From NCBI GenBank assembly GCA_019828545.1, contig JACVRA010000370.1:1-38793 (forward strand): a DNA stretch of 38,793 nt, given 5' to 3'. The notes beneath the pieces are model-generated. The model ran no database searches. It was not told where the DNA came from and worked only from the letters and a program-made list of their open reading frames with translations. The number at the start of each line of letters is the position of its first letter. Positions within the stretch are counted from its first letter, which is position 1. Origin of the DNA: Paracamarosporium sp. OC-R06-R3 (taxonomy: Eukaryota > Ascomycota > Dothideomycetes > Pleosporales > Didymosphaeriaceae). This document shows, in pieces, positions 18,267 through 38,793 of this stretch. The position numbers and the translations under genes are program-made.

Positions 18267-19481
18267 ATGAAGTCAATAGCCGCTTACGTGCTTCTTGTGG
18301 CCTCTATACTCGCATCACCACTCAAGATCCAGAAGCGCGTAGATCCCAATGATGGCCTGACGTGGATATACAAAGATTCCACGCTGCCAAAGGTCATGTA
18401 GGGCAGCTTCTCTGCATCCACATTCTTCATTTAACGTGTTCGCAGGCTTTATAACACTGCGGATGGCACTATCCTCTCTGGCTCCGACAACGGGCGTCTC
18501 GACAACATTAATTACGGTGGCGACCGTGATAGTCTCACGCCCGAGACGCTCATCGCCAATGTTAGCGAAGTGCTGGACATCGCTCAGTTTGCTGTCCGCA
18601 ACATTGGTAGCGGTGGCAGCGCGAACGCGAATTCCGACCGTTTCCTCAATATCTCCATCGATGCAACCCACCGCCTGTGCACGCCAGGCTCCGACATTGT
18701 GGGAGCCGTCATGATCCACGGAACAAATACTTTGCATGAGACTGCCTTCGGCGTCGACCTGACGCTAAACTGTTCCAAACCGTTCGTAGCCACAGGCAGC
18801 ATGAGGCCGAATAGCGCACTGAGTCCCGACGGTCCATTCAACTTCTATGATGCAGTGCGCACGGCGGTTCACCCTGATGCATGGAACCGTGGCGGTATGA
18901 TTGCGTTCAACGACCACTTGACAAGCATTTTCTACGCTACCAAGACCAATGGAAACACTGTCACCAACTTCCTCGCCATTGAACAGGGCTACATTGGACA
19001 ATTCCTCGCCGGACAGCCCTACTTCTTCTACGAACCCAGTTTCCCTAGAGGCCGCAATTTCTTCAACCCTCTTAACATGACGCTCCCCCTACCACCTGTG
19101 GTAGTGCTTTATGGCCATCAAGGCTTCGACGCAAATTTGTTATACGCCGCCGCTAAAGATGGGGCGAAGGGCATCGTTGTCATGGGTGTCGGACCCGGCG
19201 GCATGAGCACTGCTGCGATTGCTGCTGCAAATGACTTGTCTACCCAGGGTGTTGTCGTGGTGGACTCGCTGCGTCCATTTTTTGGAGCCGTGGTACCGCA
19301 GCCAGAGCCCGGATACATTATCCGCTCGGGTTTCTTGCATGGCGAGCAAAGTCGTATTCAATTGCAGCTTGCGCTTGCATCCGGATTTGACCGCGATCAC
19401 ATTCGTCGGTTGTTTGAGGGCCCGGTTAGAACGGCTGTGTATAATAACTCAACGTTGTTTTACAACGCGACCACCATTTAG
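18267..19481 (+). CDS. Secreted L-asparaginase-like protein
   Basis: Two exons, 18267-18397 and 18446-19481. The 48-bp intron runs GTAGGG to TTCGCAG; splicing restores one frame of 388 residues. A signal peptide (1-17) is followed by a KR processing site (23-24), so the product is exported. Type II asparaginases hydrolyse Asn to Asp and ammonia with two Thr residues. Here the first Thr is present (DGTILSGS, Thr52), but the motif before it reads TAD where the family has TGG. The second site reads HGTNT (136-139 region), with Asn138 where the family usually has the catalytic Asp. The Lys of the triad (YATKTN, Lys210) and the downstream TGSMRP and DGP motifs are conserved. The frame is clean, so this is either an active divergent enzyme or a paralogue with changed activity. 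Confidence 0.85.
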
Positions 19482-27997: not shown

Positions 27998-28373
27998 GAT
28001 GTTATAGCCATAAGCACAAAGCGCATCGGTTCTTCTGTTTTCTTGGGGTGCTTTCAGTGGTTTCCTGTTTGCCCAATCAGGTGTTTCCAGTATGATGCCT
28101 GCGGATCTTTCTCAAAAGCTCCCTACCTACCGTGACCGCAAGCTCAGATGACCATGCAACTACAGTCAATCTACATAGGGGGCGCAGCAGTAATGGTGAA
28201 AACCTGATTGATCAGTTCTTGCCGAACCTGTGACAGCTGTCGGTCGCCTGGTGACCGCTTAATGAGACACATGATTCAATTTCAGCCTCACTCCAACTTC
28301 AACGGCAGCCTAGCAAACATTCACTACAAACCAGCACTATTGCTATTATAGGATATCCCGGAGCAACTTTCCT
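27998..28373. other. Intergenic between two acetyltransferase relics
   Basis: About 375 bp with no frame or motif that I recognise. Confidence 0.5.
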
Positions 28374-28805
28374 ATGTCTTTTGATGTTCCAGATCACGTT
28401 GCGATGCCACTTGTCCTTTCGCGTGCTAGTACCGACGATGCAGCTCTCATCGCACAAATTCACATGGCTGCTTTTGGTCAAAACGGAATGCTTTTGAATT
28501 AATTGCCCTCACCAGAAGTGCGCAAAGTATTGGAGAAGGCAATAGAGGCAAAAGCACTGGCCGATATCATGGACCCGAAAATCACAGTCTTAGTCGTTCG
28601 AACGACGATGGTAGAGCAACGAGCCAGAGACCGACAAGTCCTGCACAAGACTCCTCTCATCATCAGCTTCGCGAAATGGATCCATCTGGTGCTACCAGAG
28701 GAAGATTATAAAGAACCTTCATGGGTATGGCCGGAATGGCACTGCGTGGGAAATTTTGGATTCTTGGACGAGGAGGGTACGTCCTGTTCTGTGCCGATTC
28801 TCTAG
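28374..28805 (+). pseudogene. GNAT acetyltransferase pseudogene, N-terminal part
   Basis: From ATG 28374 the frame reads MSFDVPDHVAMPLVLSRAST, then AALIAQIHMAAFGQNGMLLN, the usual start of fungal GNAT proteins (a short strand, then an IAxIHxxAF helix). A TAA stands where a Gln (CAA) is likely. The frame continues LPSPEVRKVLEKAIEAKALA, ITVLVVR and ISFAKWIHL to EEPSWVWP-like sequence, and ends at 28805. A donor-like GTACGT occurs near 28771, but the acetyl-CoA-binding half is not found downstream. It is a second, unrelated GNAT gene next to the LYC1-like relic. Confidence 0.7.
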
Positions 28806-29200
28806 GGATAACCTTTTTGTATTACTTCTCGTATTCAGGCCTACGTTAAACTCTTGTTGAATAGAAGATCAAATATATGTGTGCAGTGCAGCGCAGCAAA
28901 GAAAGTGAGATTAATATTCTTTATCCTAGTCTCCTAAATAGCTATATAATGGCTGCTTTGCTGTTTACGGATAGAAATGCCACTTTCGATGACTTTAGCT
29001 ATAAAAGCTTTGATTTTGTACCTGAAACAAAGAAATCCTTGAGGAATTCAATCAACCATCTGCAATGTAAACCTTTCAATTATGTAAATCCAATGGTTTC
29101 AGCTGGAACTTCGTGTTGTGCCTTTTCTGCTTCTTGTCGCATCTCACGTTGATGGAAAAAGTTTCCCACCACTAATGATATATTAAGTCAGCTTGAGTTG
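28806..29200. other. Boundary between decayed region and intact cluster
   Basis: About 395 bp, moderately AT-rich, with no supported gene. A 91-codon plus-strand frame at 28877-29152 has no recognisable feature. It contains the 3' flank of the MFS gene. Confidence 0.5.
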
Positions 29201-30923
29201 CTATTTTCGTTCACAAACCAATGGTTTAAGGATTTTGGACCAAAGTATCTTACATATTAGAAGGACTGCGACGAGTGAAAATGACAAGATTGACGGAAAT
29301 CCACGCTCGAACTTCGGTCCCATCGTTTGCGGGAAGATTATGATTGGTAGGAACGAGTTTGTTGCGTAGAAAAGTCCATTCATGGAGGAAATCGTGAGGG
29401 CTCGTTCCTCCGCATTGGAGTTGTTGACTTCGTTGGCCCAAGTCTACGTGATATGGTTAGCATACATTGACATTACAGGACGAAAGACTGCGTGGGACAT
29501 ACCCAAGTGACGGCTGTCACGTATCCTCCAGCTAGAAGGAAGAACGCTACAACTTTCGCAGTATCTGAGGTATCCCAATACGTAAGGATTGAGCTTCCTA
29601 TGACAGTGGTACCCAGCAGTGGTCCAATCATCCAGTAGATACGATTGCCAGTAAGGTCGGATCCGAATCCCCAAGCAAAATCTGTCGCCATGGTGACCAG
29701 ATTGGAACAGGCCGGAATGATGTTCCGCTGTGAGACGGAATATCCAGCGCTTTTGAGGTAGACCGAAAAATATTGGTTGGCCTGGCACGAATTTCCATAG
29801 AAGATGTACATCAGACACATTACCCACCAGCGCCAGCTGCTAAACATGCGCTTAGCAAGCTTGAAGTCAAGAACACCCTTCACTTTGGCGCGGCCCTGAC
29901 GTTCCATACGATGCCTCGCAAGCTCAATGTCGGCCTCGGTCAAGTACCATATCTTAGCGTTACTAGGATAGTCTGGTAAGAGAAACCACACTGAGAGAGC
30001 TACTGGAAAGCTCATACATCCGCAGACTATGTATAGCCACCGCCAGCCAGCAAGGCCCAGGTGACCATCAAGAGACTTATGTATGCCAGCTTGCATGAAA
30101 CCTGAAGTAGCCTGCCCAAAGAAACCGGTGATGTGCCAGATAGCGATGCGCTTTGCTAATTCGTGTTTGGTATACCAAGAACCGAGTAGGAAGATTATAA
30201 TGGGCGAAAAGCCCGATTCGAAAAGCCCGATCATGAAGCGAAAGGCATACATCTGGTTGGGGGTTTGAACAGCGGCCTGAGCGAATCTGAAGGACTTAGT
30301 TGCGTTTGCGCGGAATCAGGAATTGGGGTTCTCACGTAAAGGCTGTCCAGCCAAGTTCGCAGGCAATAATGCAGTATTTGGGCCGAATTTTTAAAGCGAT
30401 AAGGTTAGATGGAATCTGCATAATGGCGAAGGCGATCGTGTAGCACACTGTGCGCATTAGCGGTATCTAGAATGTGTGCCTTCAGCGAACCCACTTAACA
30501 TGTATGTATATTCGTTTCCCTGTATATCAAGGTCTTCCTTCAATCCTGTAACATCTGAACATTATTATAAGCCTGACGACTGGAGTATATTAACCAGTTG
30601 GGGTCTACTCACAGGCATTTGTGAGGTTAGACTGGTCGACATACTTCATCCACCAGCCCAACGTGGCGCATGTCAAAATGCCCATGTCGAGCTTGCGCAC
30701 CAGTTTTCGTTCCTTTGTACATTGGTCAGCCTCAAACACCCCCGATAATCACGGCGCGAGCACTCACCTCTGTACTCTTGAGATGCTGATCCGCATCCCA
30801 TAGATGCATGAGGATCCGCTTTCCAAAGGAGAACTCCTGTGGTGGTTTGACATCTTCACTGATACCCTCCCTAACTTCGACGGGTCGTGGGTCTGGAATA
30901 TTCAATTTCTTCTCAACCTCCAT
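29201..30923 (-). CDS. MFS anion:cation symporter (Dal5/allantoate-permease type)
   Basis: Plasma-membrane transporter of the major facilitator ACS family, whose fungal members carry allantoate, pantothenate, nicotinate and other organic anions. Six exons join into one clean frame of 484 residues: 30923-30768, 30712-30613, 30554-30495, 30447-30336, 30286-29503 and 29443-29201. All introns are GT-AG and 47-67 bp. Landmarks are a cytoplasmic N-terminus, MKYVDQSNLTNAYVTGLKED across the exon 2/3 junction, AFAIMQIPSNLIALKIRPKY, RFMIGLFESGFSPIIIFLLG, GWRWLYIVCG and, in the last exon, WANEVNNSNAEERALTISSM. Twelve hydrophobic segments are plausible. It is divergently transcribed from the aldolase-like gene. 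The substrate is unknown; an organic acid used or made by the neighbouring enzymes is an inference. Confidence 0.88.
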
Positions 30924-31045
30924 GTCAGCGTAAATGAAGCGTCGTATTTATTAATAATAAACTCAGGAGTCTCTCCACCTGACGAATTGGTAGTGCATCA
31001 GAGATGATGGAAGCAGTGACTTGGTTTTAGAACGTGTCCGCATGC

Positions 31046-31062
31046 ATCGGACAGGCCCCGAT
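31046..31062. promoter_or_regulatory. Candidate Zn2Cys6 site, CGG-N7-CCG
   Basis: ATCGGACAGGCCCCGAT: five-base arms in inverted orientation around 7 bp. Related ATCGGA/TCCGAT words recur in the other divergent promoter of the cluster (34203-34226 and near 34326). Binding by the cluster's regulator is inferred. Confidence 0.45.
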
Positions 31063-31250
31063 ATGCGCCGAACGCTGCCTATCGGCATCCTTGTAGATGA
31101 CCTTTTGGATGTTACCAAGATAAGATATTGGCGGGAGCATTGATAGTTATCTATCTATTGGCCTTTTGCTATCATTGATTATCAGCTTAGTGTTCTGATA
31201 ACCGTGGAAACTGGGGCGAATGACTTCCGGGGAGCGGGGGATAGGGCAGA

Positions 31251-31272
31251 AGTAGGGCCGCAGTAGGGCCGC
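31251..31272. repeat. 11-bp tandem repeat in the divergent promoter
   Basis: AGTAGGGCCGC occurs twice without a gap (31251-31261 and 31262-31272), directly beside the inverted repeat at 31273-31291. Confidence 0.6.
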
Positions 31273-31291
31273 CTCCGAACAGCTTTCGGAG
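31273..31291. promoter_or_regulatory. Candidate Zn2Cys6 site, CCG-N9-CGG (everted)
   Basis: CTCCGAACAGCTTTCGGAG: exact 7-bp arms around 5 bp, which places CCG and CGG nine bases apart. It lies 116 bp upstream of the aldolase-like ATG. Confidence 0.45.
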
Positions 31292-31406
31292 ACTGGACAC
31301 CGAGCTGAATTTCGGTTCCTACTTTCCTGTACTTTCGTATCCCAAAAATTTTGATAACTCCGTAATAGAAGAAGACACCAATCTAATCTACCGTTTCATC
31401 AATATC

Positions 31407-32385
31407 ATGAGTCCCAACATTGACCGAGTCGCCATCGCCCGCGAACTATGCCGGCCGAATCTCGTCAAAGCAACCATGGAGCGCAACGCGCTGGCGCACT
31501 CATTCGGCCTTCGTGTCGCATTCTCAGTGGAAATGCCCTTGATTGCGAAGCGAGCAGGATATCATGCAATTCTCATGAATTTAGAACATATGGCTATCGG
31601 AATGGAGACAATGAGGGATATTGCCATTTCATCTTTGAACGTTGGGTAAGAAGCTAGCCTCTTGCGAATAGTCTATGCTGTACGGACTGCTGATATGGGG
31701 GGATAGAATTACACCGATGGTCGTTGTGCCTACATGTGCACCAGAATGGATATCGCGATGCCTGGACGCTGGCGCGCAGGCTATCATTGTGCCGCATGTG
31801 AACACTGTCGAGCAAGCCCAGATGTGTGCAAATTCTGGCAAATTTCCTCCAATGGTAAGTTATTGTATTTGTGGACGTAAAGCAAGTTCGGCTGACACGG
31901 CATAGGGCAAGCGCTCCGTCACGATGGTCCAGCCCATGACACAGTATGCGACCGGGTTCTCATACGATACCATCGCTGAAGTCGTGAACAATGAAGTTCT
32001 CCTAATGCCTATGATTGAGACAGTTGAGGGCGTAGCCAACGTGGAAGCAATTGCCTCAGTATCCGGTATCGACGCCCTGCTGATCGGATGCGCAGATTTA
32101 TGTATGGAGCTCGGCATACCCGGTCAATTCGATGCGGATGTTTTCCATTCTACTATCGCGACAATCGCGGCGGCAGCAGAAAAAGTAAGCACAGGTGAAC
32201 GCAAGGTATTTGTTGGACTGGGGGGTCTTGAGCCAAGACCGGACTTACTTGAGACGTTCGCTATCCGACATCCTTCAATAAGATTTGCCATGGCAGGCAG
32301 AGATATGGGACTGTTATTGGATGGTATGGCAAGACAGGCTGTATCAATTAACGAAATATCGACGAAGTTACAGCTGAAGCCTTAA
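31407..32385 (+). CDS. HpcH/HpaI aldolase-family protein with altered active site
   Basis: Three exons (31407-31645, 31707-31854, 31906-32385) splice by GT-AG introns into 288 residues with no stop. The family consists of class II pyruvate aldolases (TIM barrels) that make or cleave 4-hydroxy-2-oxoacids. Metal ligands are visible: Glu167 in MIETVEGV and Asp193 in GCADLCMELG. The catalytic His is His61 in MNLEHMAIG. Two residues differ from the bacterial HpaI pattern: Asn58 where Asp precedes the EH motif, and Val86 in MVVVP where Arg (RVP) binds the pyruvate carboxylate. Since the frame is intact, the protein probably acts on a different substrate or has a different reaction. It is convergent with the aminotransferase (270 bp apart) and divergent from the transporter. 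Confidence 0.85.
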
Positions 32386-32655
32386 ATTCTATCTATGTAG
32401 AGTACGTTGCAAACATAGATATTATACACCAAGATTTTCAAAGTTGTTCTTCCTCAAGGGTTCATCTGAGTTTTCTTTGAAGATTTATACTTGACATGTG
32501 TCTGGGTAACTTATATCGAGTTGTTTTGATATCTAGAGTTTGTACACCTGGCCCCTTCCTCTTCAAGTCGATGTAATTTTATATAGATAACAAGTTTTAC
32601 ATGCGTGGTCCAAGACCTAGCAATTACAGTAGTATGGATTAAGTGACACTTGAAT

Positions 32656-34100
32656 TCAACGAATACCGATGGTCATATACTGATCAAATCCAGCTCCGCT
32701 CTTTACCATATCCCTCGTATGAACTATTGCATTCGCCAGCCTTTGCACGCCCACCCTGATCTCCGCCTCCTCATGCCACGCCCAGCACAACCTAAGGCAT
32801 TGAGCGAACCCTCTCTTATCCTCGCCCCTCGATAGGCTCGTTAGGTCACCAGCCACAGTGAACATGTGTCCGAAGGCAACGCGCAGTTGCATATTCTTCC
32901 ATGCGATAGCAGCCACAATCTTGGATGCGGGTAAGTCCTCTGGCAGGCGTATATAGGTGAAAAAGCCTCCAGCAACACCTGTAGGTGCGTTTGATTCGAC
33001 AACGATGCCGAGAGGTAGGAGAAGCTCATCGATACATTGCATCAGCGAGTAGTAACGCTTGCGGTATTCCGGTATGAGGATATTCTTGATGTGCGTCTGT
33101 AAATGGCCGCCGCGGAGCATCTTATCTATGAAGGTGGATGTTAGATGGGATGGTGCACCGCCAGAACTCGAAGAGCCACTGTCAGTATAAAATATTAGTT
33201 TGCCTCTTCCAGCGCTCTACAGAATTCTAGGAAGACTTACACTTCCGATAATTCCAGGGCAAATGCCGGCGCACAGTCTGTCCAGCCAACCCTAATTCCA
33301 GGACCGACAATTTTCGAGAATGACCCATTACTAGCTGTGTTTCCAAATTCACTGCAGCCCTCCATAGATTGGTCAATGTCTATCAGGCGTGGCGGTGGAA
33401 TTGAACTAGAAGCACTGTCTCCAGCGGCGGGATCGACACGCCAACTAAGGAAGTCGTATACATCATCCGACACAATTAGTGCGTCAAAATCTCTTGCTAT
33501 TTTGACTAGTTCTTTGCGTAGTTCTAGGCTCATGGTTTTGCCGCTCGGGTTTGCGAAAGTGGGGACAACGTAGATGATGTATTTGTATATCTTGGGGTAG
33601 GCCTTCCCCGTCTTCAAAGTTGGAGCAATGTTTCCGTCGGCTTGCGCAGCTGCTTCCGCCAGTTGAAGCTTCTTATGTAAGAATTCGATATCGATCCCGT
33701 CGGCCTTTTCGGGCACACCTTTCAATTTCCCACGAAAGCCGTTGTCCTCAAAAATCGGACAGGCGAGGAAGTATGTCGGCTCCACCATGAAGATATTTCT
33801 TGTATATAACGGGTCGGTAAATTTGAGTAGAATGTTTGATAGGTTCGCAGACGCGCCGTTCGTAATACATATGCGCTCTTTCTTCGTGGTGATGTTGTAG
33901 ACAGCTGAAAGCCATTGCGCGACGCTCTCGCGCAGTGGCGGATGGCCAATGTGCGGGCCGTAGATGAGAGCATTTGTTGTTTCTACCTGGGAACTGAGCA
34001 CATCAGTAGCGCCTTGCAGTAGAGAAGCGCCTGCGAAAAGACGCGGCGAGGGCCAGCCAAGCTGCAAGTTGATGGTATCGCCAACGGGAACCACGCTCAT
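32656..34100 (-). CDS. Class I/II (fold type I) PLP aminotransferase
   Basis: Two exons (34100-33241 and 33178-32656) with a 62-bp intron (GTAAGT to GACAG) give 460 residues. I chose ATG 34100 (MSVVPVGDTINLQLGWPSPR), because family members start with a similar NLQLGWPS segment; an ATG at 34130 would add ten residues. PLP-binding features are NGASANLSNI (81-90), NPSGK (184-188), SDDVY (211-215) and the Schiff-base Lys263 in SFSKIVGPGIRVGW. The Arg that binds the substrate carboxylate should lie in exon 2 (GFFTYIRLPEDLP, or nearer the C-terminus). Relatives include AvtA/MocR-like and 2-aminoadipate/kynurenine-type transaminases; the substrate cannot be read from sequence. Its place suggests it aminates or deaminates a 2-oxoacid of the cluster pathway. 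Confidence 0.88.
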
Positions 34101-34481
34101 CTTGTTGAGGATTGAATACTCAATGTACACAATTAGTTATCGTCCAATATCAAGTTATCGCACAGAAGCACTTCAACCCTTTTTTGGTGTCGGACATTGC
34201 ATTCCGATGGGGTCACCTGTATCGGAAGCTTCGGGCGCTAGGAGTGCGTCTCCGAAGATTGTCACTAGGTATCTCCCGATATAGATAGCGTGTCGAAAGA
34301 TGTCCTGTATATCGAATGCATTCTATCGGACCAAAGTAGTGAGCAAGTTAAGATAAAATAGTCGACGAGATAACGCGCATCGGAAAGGGCCTTCCATGTA
34401 AGCATTCGTGTGGCCAAGATTTATGAGCTTGATTGTCACATCTCACTAGACACTCATTCTGAGTGCGTTTCGAGGGACAAT
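34101..34481. promoter_or_regulatory. Divergent promoter of aminotransferase and ICL-like genes
   Basis: A 381-bp gap between divergent starts. It contains TTCCGAT-N12-ATCGGAA (34202-34227), TCTCCGAAGA (about 34249-34258) and TATCGGACC (about 34324). These repeat the ATCGGA/TCCGA words of the other divergent promoter. The ICL-like frame is open back to about 34404 but has no earlier ATG. Confidence 0.55.
34202..34227. promoter_or_regulatory. Candidate regulator site, inverted repeat TCCGAT/ATCGGA
   Basis: TTCCGAT (34202-34208) and ATCGGAA (34221-34227) are exact reverse complements separated by 12 bp. The shared core with 31046-31062 suggests the same DNA-binding protein; this is an inference. 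Confidence 0.4.
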
Positions 34482-36208
34482 ATGACCAAAAGATGGCCAA
34501 ACATCAAGGCGGAGAAGGAAGCTTTCGAAGCCGAGGTAAAACAGATTGAGGCGTGGTGGCAAACCGATAGGCAGAAGCATATTACAAGGTGAGTACGCGA
34601 CAAGAATAAGGTACACAAACCACTAAATTGCGAGAACGGTAGACCATACACAGCAACGTCAATCGCCGCATTGCGGAACGTAGGTTTCAAGCAAGAGTAT
34701 GCATCCAGCATTCAGGGTCGCAAACTGTGGCGGATCCTCAGCGAACATAATGCCAATGGAACATATGAACTCACGTTTGGCACAACCGAGCCACTTATTG
34801 CAAAGGAGATGGCGCAGTCCAGTAGATTTACCTCATTACACTTAGACGCTTTATGAAAGCTAACGTGGCCAGTGCAAACGATATACGTCTCTGGCGCTCT
34901 CTGCGGTTTATCACTCGCATCATGGCCCGGTGAAGACCACGCAGACTATCCTTCTGATTTGGTACCTTCGGTGGTCAAGCGCATATTCAATACACAGCTT
35001 TTTCACGATCAGCGTCAAACTCAACTGCGGATGCGGAATGACGAAACAGATCGCGAATCGCTCGAATGCATCGACTATATGCTCCCTATTGTCGCAGACT
35101 GTGATATGGGTTTCGGGACCTTGACGGGGTGCATGAAGACGGTGAGGAGTTTCGTAGAGAGCGGCGTCGCCATGATCCATATCGATGATCTAGCCATGGG
35201 ACTGAAGAAGTTCACAAATGGTGAAGGAAGGACCATAGTTCCAATATGCGAGTATTTGGATCGCTTGAAAACGGTGCGCATGACCTTTGACATCATGGGG
35301 TGGGTGCAACGTTTTTGTCATCCTTCGAATCGTGCGTTAACCTCCTTTCCAGAGCTGACACTCTACTGCTCTGTCGATGTGACAGTGATGGTGCCGAATT
35401 TATTACGAGTGTCCTCGACCCGCGCGACCACCCGTTCGTCCTCGGAGCCACAAAATCGGTGGAATCCTTCGTAGCAGCCATTGACGCTGGAAAAGAGTCA
35501 GGCAAAGACTACTTGACGGTCAAGAAAGATTGGAAGATGCAGGCAGGATTAATGACGTTCGATGACGCTGTTAAGGCCGTCGTTGACAAAGAGCAATACA
35601 AAGCGTACATAGCTGAAGTAGGAGAAAAGGTGGTCGCCCTGCAGCAGCGGCGGGCCATTGCGAAAAGAGTCACGGGCCAGGATGTTGCGTTCGACTGGGA
35701 GCTCCCTCGTACGCCTCACGGGCAGTACATGTGGCAGTGGAATACGAAGCAGGTCATTGATCGAGCTGTGCTGGCCGCTCCTTTTGGAGACGTTACATGG
35801 AGTCGACAAGACAAACCGAACAAGCGGGATATGCATGACTTCCACACAGGCGTGCGCGCCGCGTATCCCAACCGCCTCTTCGCGTTTGGCTTTATGGGTG
35901 CATATGACTTTGCCCAAGGTGGTTATAGCCTGGCTGAGCTGGAGTCGTTCCACTCAGACATCGCGCGCGATTACGGCATTGTGTGGCAAGTGCAACCAAT
36001 TTGGGCGACGCAAGGACTATCATTGCATGCGAGACAGTTTGCAAAGGCATTTGTAGAGAAGGGCATGGCGGGTTATATGCGCGATGTTGCAAAGCCTGCG
36101 ATAGAAAGTATGCCGACGGACAAGCACGGGAAGCCCACAGCGAGGGGCGGTTACTTAGCAGACGCGTTTTTCGATGTCGTAGCAGGCAGGGAGATTGTCA
36201 ATAAGTGA
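34482..36208 (+). CDS. Isocitrate-lyase-like protein without the catalytic Cys motif
   Basis: Four exons (34482-34588, 34643-34821, 34873-35299, 35353-36208) with GT-AG introns of 51-54 bp give 522 residues. The length and overall plan match isocitrate/2-methylisocitrate lyases: FEAEVKQIEAWW, RPYTATSIAALRNVGF, QSMQTIYVSGALCGLSLASW, YPSDLVPSVVKRIFNTQLFH, the Mg-binding ADCDMGFG (170-177) and HIDDLAMGLKK. Where the family has the active-site KKCGH this protein has KKFTN (207-211), so the general-acid Cys and its His are gone. The C-terminal substrate loop SPSFNW is replaced by GFMGAYDF (417-424), and the ETxTP region reads SRQDKP. With an undamaged frame, a new lyase or hydrolase reaction is more likely than decay. 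The next gene follows after 174 bp on the same strand. Confidence 0.85.
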
Positions 36209-36382
36209 ATGGAAAGCGTTCCCGTGCATGCAACTCGTGGTCAGCAATTGCCAAGGAAGTGACATGACGAAGCACAGGCGCAAGTGGGGCGACAGGAATG
36301 CACGTGACCTTAGCTCGCCAGGGCCGAGGTTAGATAAGGTCCATTTCCCTGAACCACCATCTCAACATACACTGCCAACCTC

Positions 36383-38417
36383 ATGGAGGAGGAAGATAGA
36401 CCGCCATCTAAACGATTGAAGTCGGTCGCCTGTCTACGGTGCCGCAAGCGTAAAGTTAGGCACATCGACCTCTCACCCCTCGTCCATCTGCTGATTGTCG
36501 AAACAGCAAAGATGCGACAACGAACGGCCTTGTGGCAATTGTACCCGATCCAAGCAGCAATGTGTTGAGCCACCTGCGGGGGCGGATCTGCAGCATCATA
36601 GCTATATCTCGCATGATGCACTGGGCCAACTTGCTGATATCGCTTCTCTAGAGGAGCGAATTTCCCGTCTGGAAGACAATCACCTGCGATGGCATCAGGA
36701 TGCTGGCCAAAACCAGTCATCTTCATTGGCTCCTCAGAGTTGGTCTCATTCGCTTGCAACAGCCGGTCTTGTCACGTCTATGCCCAAGTCTACTCAAAAT
36801 ACATCCCCACCAGCCACGTTCCCTGTCCCAAATCCTGGTGATAGTCTCAGCAACGATGCCAGGGAAGCTCTATTCTCTTTGTATCTAGAAAAGGTACACC
36901 CGAGATACCCCTTCCTTCGTCCAGATTATATACGGCATGATCTAAGCCCATGTTCTATCTTCTTCTCCAATCTCATTTACTCCATCGGTCTGCTATTAAA
37001 TGTCAAAGACCAGAAGATCTTATCGTCTTACGGTCAGCAAGACTATTACGATGCCGCCGTAAAGTATCACCTCCCTATAATCTTCGCTCAACCTGACCGC
37101 TTGTTACACATACAAGCTCACCTCCTCATGAGCATGCATGCCTTATTCTCACCATCCACCGAGGCCATCATCTCCGCAGCCTCGACAACTATGCGCTACT
37201 GTGTCATGGCACAACTCCATCTGGCTGATGCGGAACCTCCCTCGACGGACGCTGCAGCTAAGGTGCAGATCCAAATGCGGCGGCGTATCTTCTGGTCCGC
37301 CTACTCTCTTGATCGCACCGTTGGGGCCGTTTTTGATCTACCATTCTGTATTCCCGATTCACAGATTACCATCAAACGATTCGCAAACATAAACGACAAT
37401 GAGCTCGAGGCACGCTGCGTAGAGGCCTTCCCTAATGATCCCACAAGCTTTCCCGGCCTCACAGATGTATCCGCAGCTCTACACGTGGTCTATTGCAGGC
37501 AGATTCAATCAGAAATCCTCAATACTACCTTGCATCGCGACTTCTGGACGTCGATGGATACGCACAACCACTGGCGTTTACGCGTCATCGAGAAACTGGA
37601 CAGATGGCGCACTCTCTGCCACCGATATGCCGATAAACGCGACATCAACTTTTCCAACAGCGAATGGCTGCACATGATCTATAATTACAGTCTCGCGATG
37701 CTCTACCAGCCAACCAAAACGACGGCGAGGGAGTCAGCAGGCCATTGGACGGTCAAAGCATGCACCCAAGCGCTTCTCATCTTCCGTAAGTTCCAACGGG
37801 AGAGACCGCTCACCGATCTGTGGCTTGGTCTGATCGCTCAGCTCAAGTGTGGTGTTGCCCTATTGTATTGTTTCTTTGCGACCCCGCCTGAGCAACGGTC
37901 ATCAACGTACGAGACGCTCGACGTTTCGGAAGCTGTACGAGCATGTAGTGTCACCATGTCGCTCCTGGCTGAGCGGTGGCCGCAATCGAAATGCTTGCGT
38001 GACAGCTTCGATCTTCTCGCTCGCGAAATACCACTCTTCGAAACTAGCGGAACGAATCCCACTTCCAATACTAGAAGACGCATGCGCCAAGAATCCATTG
38101 CTGCGCTAGAAAGACTCATGCCTCAGCTCGAACTACTTGTTGTGCATCGCGGCACGCTCCGCATGGTACGCGAGATGATGACCAGCGACTTTCCACGCTC
38201 GCAAGATAAAAACGCAGACGATGGCAATACTGAAGATGCTGCAAAGGGAGATGCGACTGGAGATTTCGATTCGCACTACTCTGGCGTGAGTGAAGATCTC
38301 TTCCAGCCGTTCACGCCGCAGTGTATGCCGGGAGATGGCTTAGTGGATTTACAAGAACAGTTCAATGAGTCCTCTATCTGGTTTCCTGGTGACTTCAATC
38401 TTAACACTACATTTTAA
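36383..38417 (+). CDS. Zn2Cys6 transcription factor, likely cluster regulator
   Basis: Two exons, 36383-36454 and 36507-38417. The 52-bp intron (GTTAGG to AACAG) falls inside the zinc cluster, a common place in fungal regulators. Splicing gives 660 residues with Cys17, 20, 27, 33, 36 and 43, exactly CX2CX6CX5CX2CX6C, and a basic stretch (RKRKQR) for DNA contact. A short coiled coil (LADIASLEERISRLEDN, about 75-90) fits dimer binding. The middle region, from EALFSLYLEKVHPRYPFLRP through RRRIFWSAYSLDRTVGAVFD, is the fungal-specific transcription factor domain (PF04082 type). The acidic, Asp/Phe-rich C-terminus may activate transcription. Its position beside the ICL-like gene and the paired CGG motifs in the cluster promoters suggest pathway-specific control. 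Confidence 0.9.
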
Positions 38418-38548
38418 GTCAAGTTATGTTTTACCTAGTGTCTCTGTAGATAGTCTTTCAAATCTAGTATAAAAGTTAGTATTATTATTAATAATATATT
38501 CTTAAAAGACTAGTTTTCTATATAAATAAAACGATTTAACTTGCTATA

Positions 38549-38793
38549 ACGTGTCTATAAGCGAGCGGCCACTATAAGCGAGCGACCACCCCTACTAACT
38601 TTTTACGCCTTTATAGTAATCTATCTTAATAACGCAATAAGATAATTAAAATATTTAAGCTGCGCTAGATTAAGGAGTATCTATAGTATCTTTCTTACAG
38701 GTTCGTAAGTTATGGCCAGTCTGCCTGCAGCGGCTGCAGCGCGCTGAAGCCTGTTAACTCATACCTAATCGCGCCTTGCCTTGGCGCGTTTCC
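38549..38793 (-). mobile_element. Fot1/pogo-type DNA transposon, terminal part
   Basis: The terminal inverted repeat starts at 38549 (ACGTGTCTATAAGCGAGCGG) directly after TA (38547-38548), the target site of Tc1/mariner/pogo elements. A subterminal repeat TATAAGCGAGCG occurs twice (38556-38567, 38573-38584). On the minus strand 38738-38697 encodes CSRCRQTGHNLRTC, a CX2CX4HX4C zinc knuckle typical of the C-terminus of Fot1/pogo transposases. The rest of the transposase and the other terminus lie outside the window. TAA codons between the knuckle and the terminus suggest light RIP or the natural end of the frame. The element is AT-enriched but much less mutated than the left block. Confidence 0.8.

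Follow-up and report, generated by a model that had tools for sequence, protein, structure and literature searches.

The subject of this analysis is a run of five adjacent genes at the right end of a contig from the fungus Paracamarosporium sp. OC-R06-R3 (contig C177 of a 43 Mb assembly), and the entire 38.8 kb contig is called the window in the following. The gene models, named with the help of Pfam, are:

29201..30923, minus strand: MFS (major facilitator superfamily) transporter, 484 amino acids (aa), 6 exons
31407..32385, plus strand: HpcH/HpaI-fold protein, 288 aa, 3 exons
32656..34100, minus strand: PLP (pyridoxal phosphate) aminotransferase of class I/II, 460 aa, 2 exons
34482..36208, plus strand: isocitrate-lyase-fold protein, 522 aa, 4 exons
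36383..38417, plus strand: Zn2Cys6 transcription factor with a Fungal_trans domain, 660 aa, 2 exons

Every one of these genes reads as a single open reading frame once one to five short GT-AG introns are spliced out, the Pfam families agree with all five names, and the composite index of repeat-induced point mutation (RIP) is below zero in each gene, ranging from -0.52 to -0.98. In these respects the original prediction, which described five intact, cleanly spliced neighbours spared by RIP, is confirmed.

For the isocitrate-lyase-fold (lyase-like) protein the rows compared were the best 120 of 211 matches, and the corresponding sets for the HpcH-like protein and the aminotransferase were the best 120 of 135 and the best 120 of 641, respectively. 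The lyase-like alignment holds the 91 relatives of at least 480 aa, the 29 shorter ones being excluded; 73 of the 91 carry a fungal name and 18 are without a name. Positions are given in the numbering of the M. tuberculosis enzyme, placed on the fungal columns by motif in a mapping of our own. Cys191 is the catalytic acid of that enzyme, and PMC7609661 describes that Cys191Ser alone inactivates it and that Asp108Ala is inactive. It is clear from the alignment that this cysteine is gone, since the window protein reads KKFTN where isocitrate lyase has KKCGH, with Phe at the cysteine position in 91/91 relatives and Thr as the next residue in 90 of them. Five of the nine ligand-contact residues of isocitrate lyase listed in PMC8099091 are also replaced in the window protein, namely Trp93 by Ala (Ala in 75 of the 91 relatives, otherwise Gly, Ser or a gap), Glu182 by Asp (91/91), Glu285 by Arg (91/91), Asn313 by Gly (90/91) and Thr347 by Pro (89/91). 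The other four contacts, equivalent to Ser91, Asp108, Asp153 and Arg228 and corresponding to the Mg and oxo-acid half of the site, are retained in the window, and most or all of the rows preserve the residues of the Mg site. On these residues the protein is an isocitrate lyase in fold that lacks the catalytic Cys and five contact residues.

Many of the listed relatives are named isocitrate lyase or methylisocitrate lyase in the databases, which may be explained by scores above the NCBIfam cut-off, as the window protein reaches 344.3 bits in the isocitrate lyase equivalog with a cut-off of 275.9. The fold itself is well preserved: the structure model of a 78% identical relative (predicted local distance difference test, pLDDT, 88.6; loop 206-212 uncertain) matches fungal isocitrate lyases along the whole length with a template modelling (TM) score of about 0.9. 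The genome contains separate KKCGH-bearing copies on contigs C40 and C142. In a tree of 49 rows (45 hand-picked from the 120 listed relatives and four from this genome) a branch with 100/100 support splits 47 lyase-like rows from the isocitrate and methylisocitrate lyases of this genome, and the window protein falls within a clade of 17 rows, also with 100/100 support.

The active site of the HpcH-like protein is altered as well. Positions follow the numbering of the E. coli enzyme, in which Glu149 and Asp175 are the metal ligands. Rows shorter than 240 aa (nine among the 68 close rows, two among the 52 distant ones) were excluded, leaving 59 close and 50 distant rows; among the close rows 55 have a fungal name and four have none, and the distant rows that are named are bacterial, most of them being without a name. 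At the Arg70 position the window protein has Val (V86), as do 55 of the 59 close rows (two have Ala and two a gap), and all 50 distant rows have Arg. The Asp42 position is Asn in the window (N58) and in 59/59 close rows, and Asp in 50/50 distant rows. The window protein retains His61, Asp100, Glu167 and Asp193; the equivalents of Glu149 (E167), Asp175 (D193) and His45 (H61) are kept in 59/59, 55/59 (with four gaps) and 59/59 close rows, respectively. Eight other places in the genome match HpcH, and six of these show the stretch in question and keep the Arg, the pattern having missed the other two. According to PMC8560999, Arg70 and His45 of the HpcH/HpaI class II aldolase matter for cleavage and for stabilisation of the enolate. 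Both altered positions have been the object of mutant structures, R70A and D42A in 4b5w and 4b5x. The model of an 82% identical relative (pLDDT 95.9) has the HpcH/HpaI aldolase fold.

The Val/Asn type of HpcH protein is also present in basidiomycete yeasts (Naematelia, Kwoniella, Saitozyma, Cryptotrichosporon and Cryptococcus) at 63-71% identity, and these copies are as near to the window protein as many ascomycete copies, which suggests either transfer between phyla or repeated loss. Two known chemistries were considered and dropped. The 4-hydroxyglutamate (hydroxyproline) route, which joins an aminotransferase to a pyruvate aldolase, was given up because the aldolase Arg is missing, and for chemistry of the macrophomate synthase kind, that structure ranks below bacterial aldolases.

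Linkage in other fungi was read from protein listings, where two proteins whose longest contigs have exactly equal size almost surely share one contig, and as a control the lengths in one list were offset by 1 to 200 bases in either direction. Using 120 lyase-like, 68 close HpcH-like and 120 aminotransferase rows, the lyase-like and aminotransferase genes share a contig in at least 30 cases (control mean 0.085), the lyase-like and HpcH-like genes in at least 11 (control mean 0.0125) and the HpcH-like and aminotransferase genes in at least eight (control mean 0.0325); no shifted control exceeded one match. All three genes lie on a common contig in at least three fungi, Karstenula, Cadophora DSE1049 and Colletotrichum orchidophilum. 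Organism names are available for 25 of the 30 lyase-aminotransferase pairs and agree between the two members each time, the other five being without names. Contigs below 100 kb account for nine of the 30, the smallest being 3.7 kb; many other linked contigs are far larger, and there a common contig is no proof of adjacency. The lyase-like and aminotransferase genes bear successive locus tags in Meristemomyces, Zasmidium, Fusarium sarcochroum and Cosmosporella (tags in steps of ten) and tags two apart in Stylonectria; in Fusarium sp. DS 682 the tags of the lyase-like and HpcH-like genes differ by two. Since the rows are the best of longer lists, missing links prove nothing.

By identity, Karstenula supplies the closest near-full-length relative among the matches listed of both the lyase-like (81%) and the HpcH-like (82%) protein, and for the aminotransferase Kalmusia (81%) comes ahead of Karstenula (77%). 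Both genera belong to the Didymosphaeriaceae, which points to a host probably in or near that family; the top lyase-like row by score among the matches listed is a Colletotrichum protein. When the distances among lyase-like proteins were compared with those among their aminotransferase partners in a mirror-tree analysis of the 30 linked pairs and two pairs of this genome, r was 0.835, a value to which species relatedness contributes, and none of 5000 permutations came as high (largest 0.261). Apart from a pair on contig C67 of this genome, described below, the pairs form two groups, one near the window (lyase identity 73-84%) and another at 52-56%; both are represented among the lyase-like rows of Stachybotrys elegans, and Geosmithia morbida has aminotransferase rows resembling both. 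By these comparisons the lyase-like/aminotransferase pair is an old unit, and the core formed by the HpcH-like gene, the aminotransferase gene and the lyase-like gene did not come together by chance. The compact pathway foreseen in the original prediction is supported for these three of the five genes, which are found on common contigs across many fungi, in some cases under consecutive tags; as the three recur together, the scattered homologues that would have spoken against the idea are not what is seen for them.

The two divergent promoters of the cluster were scanned for short motifs, with these features:

30924..31406, no strand assigned: divergent promoter between the MFS and HpcH-like genes, 483 bases, 9 HGATAR and 3 ATCGG (motif count)
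34101..34481, no strand assigned: divergent promoter between the aminotransferase and lyase-like genes, 381 bases, 6 HGATAR and 5 ATCGG (motif count)
34202..34227, no strand assigned: perfect inverted repeat TTCCGAT-N12-ATCGGAA, a candidate site for the Zn2Cys6 regulator (read from the sequence)

GATAAC ranked first and ATCGGA second in a 6-mer scan of both promoters. HGATAR is the AreA consensus as applied to the hxn genes in PMC8478523; although published, it was tested after the same scan. The MFS/HpcH-like promoter has 9 sites where 2.07 are expected (0/1000 dinucleotide shuffles as high), and the aminotransferase/lyase-like promoter has 6 where 1.69 are expected (4/1000). As genome background we used 184 kb from 30 loci elsewhere, some of which overlap, cut into windows of at least 40% GC; nine or more sites occur in none of 2810 windows of 483 bases, and six or more in 6 of 2856 overlapping windows of 381 bases. 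The region 27998-29200 holds no HGATAR, and the regulator's own promoter has one HGATAR and no ATCGG. Five copies of ATCGG in the aminotransferase/lyase-like promoter are matched in 2/1000 shuffles, an optimistic figure because the motif was chosen after the scan, and in 2 of 2856 windows; the ATCGG count in the MFS/HpcH-like promoter is not significant (131/1000). The shape of the inverted repeat would suit a Zn2Cys6 dimer. Taken together, the cluster is probably under nitrogen-regulator control.

Contig C67 carries a second lyase-like gene (91.3-92.9 kb) and an aminotransferase gene (103.3-104.7 kb), 45% and 43% identical to their counterparts in the window; the lyase-like row sits on a long branch of the 49-row tree and has no firm placement there. 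Between or beside the two lie an MFS-like gene (one exon, weak Pfam match), a class I glutamine amidotransferase gene, a regulator-like gene, a polysaccharide-deacetylase-fold gene, a DAO-family oxidoreductase gene and an amidase gene, and further on, within 40 kb, an NCS1 permease gene, an ordinary HpcH gene and hydantoinase/oxoprolinase genes (region about 89-131 kb). Such neighbours suit a role in the use of nitrogen compounds, without proving it. Besides the promoters of the pair, considered below, one other C67 promoter shows an HGATAR excess (4 with 0.78 expected). Duplication of the whole cluster was rejected as an origin of the C67 region, since its HpcH copy keeps the catalytic Arg and its MFS-like gene does not appear in the search with the window MFS protein (best 88 of 178 candidates scored). 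Among the paralogues of the window regulator the one on C67 ranks second, at a weak 30%, and the best (29%) is on contig C39, adjoined by an MFS gene (6.5 kb read by eye). The genome searches for the lyase, HpcH and aminotransferase gave no match on C39, and the contigs C50 and C36, which hold further aminotransferase copies, gave no lyase-like match.

To the left of the cluster, kilobases 1-11, 17-18 and 20-22 of the window are RIP-like, the leftmost 11 kb being mostly very AT-rich, and 11-17, 18-20 and 22-29 kb are not, with 19-20 kb borderline (-0.03). An asparaginase frame at 18435-19478, flanked by RIP-like stretches, is open across both domains. The earlier statement that almost all genes on this side are broken was therefore too strong. 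On the other side the contig stops 376 bases past the regulator gene, and these last bases (38418-38793) have a lower GC content and a tandem 17-base repeat (38555-38588); they are perhaps a transposon end.

Judged from sequence, the locus consists of five intact genes with a conserved lyase-aminotransferase pair, to which the HpcH-like gene is added in one clade, with two active sites remodelled in a conserved manner and with divergent promoters rich in GATA sites. We read this with moderate confidence as a nitrogen-regulated cluster, probably for an amino acid or an amino-acid-like organic acid used as nitrogen source. The MFS protein would import the compound and the aminotransferase would remove its amino group to give a 2-oxo acid. 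This 2-oxo acid could be held by the isocitrate-lyase-fold enzyme through Mg2+ and the retained Ser/Asp/Asp/Arg half-site, and a C-C bond altered without the usual Cys acid. The HpcH-fold enzyme would work on the same or the next intermediate by means of its retained metal site. The Zn2Cys6 protein and an AreA-type GATA factor would turn the cluster on. The link to glyoxylate or pyruvate that had been cautiously suggested for this locus is weakened, since residues on which the known reactions depend are missing from both C-C lyase folds, although the metal-binding half, which in relatives holds an oxo acid, is retained.

Several observations weigh against a nitrogen-use cluster of this composition. 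At least six named fungi have the HpcH-like and lyase-like genes on different contigs (Xylariaceae FL0016, Xylariomycetidae FL2044, Xylariales PMI_506, Lecanosticta, Pestalotiopsis NC0098 and Seiridium cardinale), and the matches listed contain no Fusarium link between a lyase of the window group and an aminotransferase, with five Fusarium rows linking the lyase-like and HpcH-like genes. On C67 the nitrogen-related neighbours stretch to almost 40 kb from the lyase-like gene and may be unrelated to it, HGATAR is not enriched in the promoter between the MFS-like and lyase-like genes (1 with 1.16 expected), and the one ahead of the aminotransferase has a weak excess (3 with 1.16 expected; 98/1000 shuffles as high). 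GATA sites also serve factors other than AreA, and AreA itself has a part in secondary metabolism too. Control of fungal secondary metabolism by nitrogen regulators, as described in PMC5404775 and PMC4246892, favours an alternative in which the product of the cluster is an unusual amino acid or acid building block, the lyase folds forming C-C bonds, the aminotransferase adding the amino group last and the MFS protein exporting or re-importing the product. Such a biosynthetic role would also suit the patchy distribution across classes among the matches listed and the presence of the biosynthetic MppQ among the aminotransferase matches, far below the cut-off of that model. We nevertheless consider it less likely than nitrogen use, because Pfam finds no nonribosomal peptide synthetase, polyketide synthase or terpene backbone gene and no tailoring oxygenase among the five genes, on a contig that ends 376 bases past the regulator; because the MFS protein is nearest, at low similarity, to galactonate-group uptake carriers (best curated subfamily the D-galactonate transporter group TIGR00893, with a score under its cut-off); and because the C67 paralogues of the pair lie among genes for hydrolysis and for nitrogen compounds.

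The loss of catalytic residues in both folds could instead mean that the two proteins are metabolite-binding regulatory pseudoenzymes and that the aminotransferase is the sole catalyst. It appears as if the sites have been rebuilt and not decayed, since several of the substitutes are near-invariant (Cys-Gly to Phe-Thr, Glu to Arg, Thr to Pro, Asn to Gly) and the residues of the Mg site persist in most or all rows, and this makes the pseudoenzyme explanation distinctly improbable. Still further from likely is an ordinary isocitrate or 2-methylisocitrate lyase paralogue, a housekeeping duplicate beside unrelated genes: the passed equivalog cut-off (344.3 against 275.9 bits), the database names of many relatives and the full-length match of the relative's model at a TM score of about 0.9 all speak for it, but the position where Cys191Ser, according to the mutant data in PMC7609661, inactivates the M. 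tuberculosis enzyme is Phe in 91/91 relatives, the Trp93, Glu182, Glu285, Asn313 and Thr347 positions are changed too, KKCGH copies exist separately on C40 and C142, and the linkage to the aminotransferase is non-random.

Returning to the nitrogen-use cluster, it is quite possible, though short of probable, that both lyase folds perform C-C chemistry new to their superfamilies, with a 2-oxo acid from the aminotransferase as substrate; the label isocitrate lyase would then conceal a nitrogen-use pathway that is widespread in fungi and has so far gone unrecognised. Exact-word searching of the open-licence PubMed Central literature found no earlier description of this gene combination. For the lyase-like protein, the automatic naming and the metabolic models of many fungi are probably in error, because 91/91 long relatives lack the catalytic Cys and bear a different signature, yet many are called (methyl)isocitrate lyase. 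The partner aminotransferase and the nitrogen-type promoters would offer a direct and cheap route to the substrate, and perhaps to a new reaction of two well-studied folds.

Among known systems, the hxn nicotinate clusters of Aspergillus nidulans, as presented in PMC8478523, resemble the cluster in combining MFS transporters and catabolic enzymes with a pathway regulator, and in their divergent gene pairs and HGATAR sites; the enzymes and the regulator type are wholly different, and hxn has been demonstrated experimentally, whereas the present cluster is predicted from sequence. Fungal isocitrate lyase (PF00463, TIGR01346, 1dqu) shares with the lyase-like protein the full-length fold, the Mg-site Asp and the Ser91, Asp108 and Arg228 equivalents, but the window protein differs in the missing catalytic Cys and the changed Trp93, Glu182, Glu285, Asn313 and Thr347 positions, and its group stands on a separate side of a 100/100 branch and is linked to an aminotransferase. 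Similarly, the HpcH/HpaI class II pyruvate aldolases (HpaI, SwHKA, GarL and macrophomate synthase) have in common with the HpcH-like protein the fold, the Glu and Asp metal ligands and the catalytic His, whereas the window protein carries Val at the Arg70 position and Asn at the Asp42 position.

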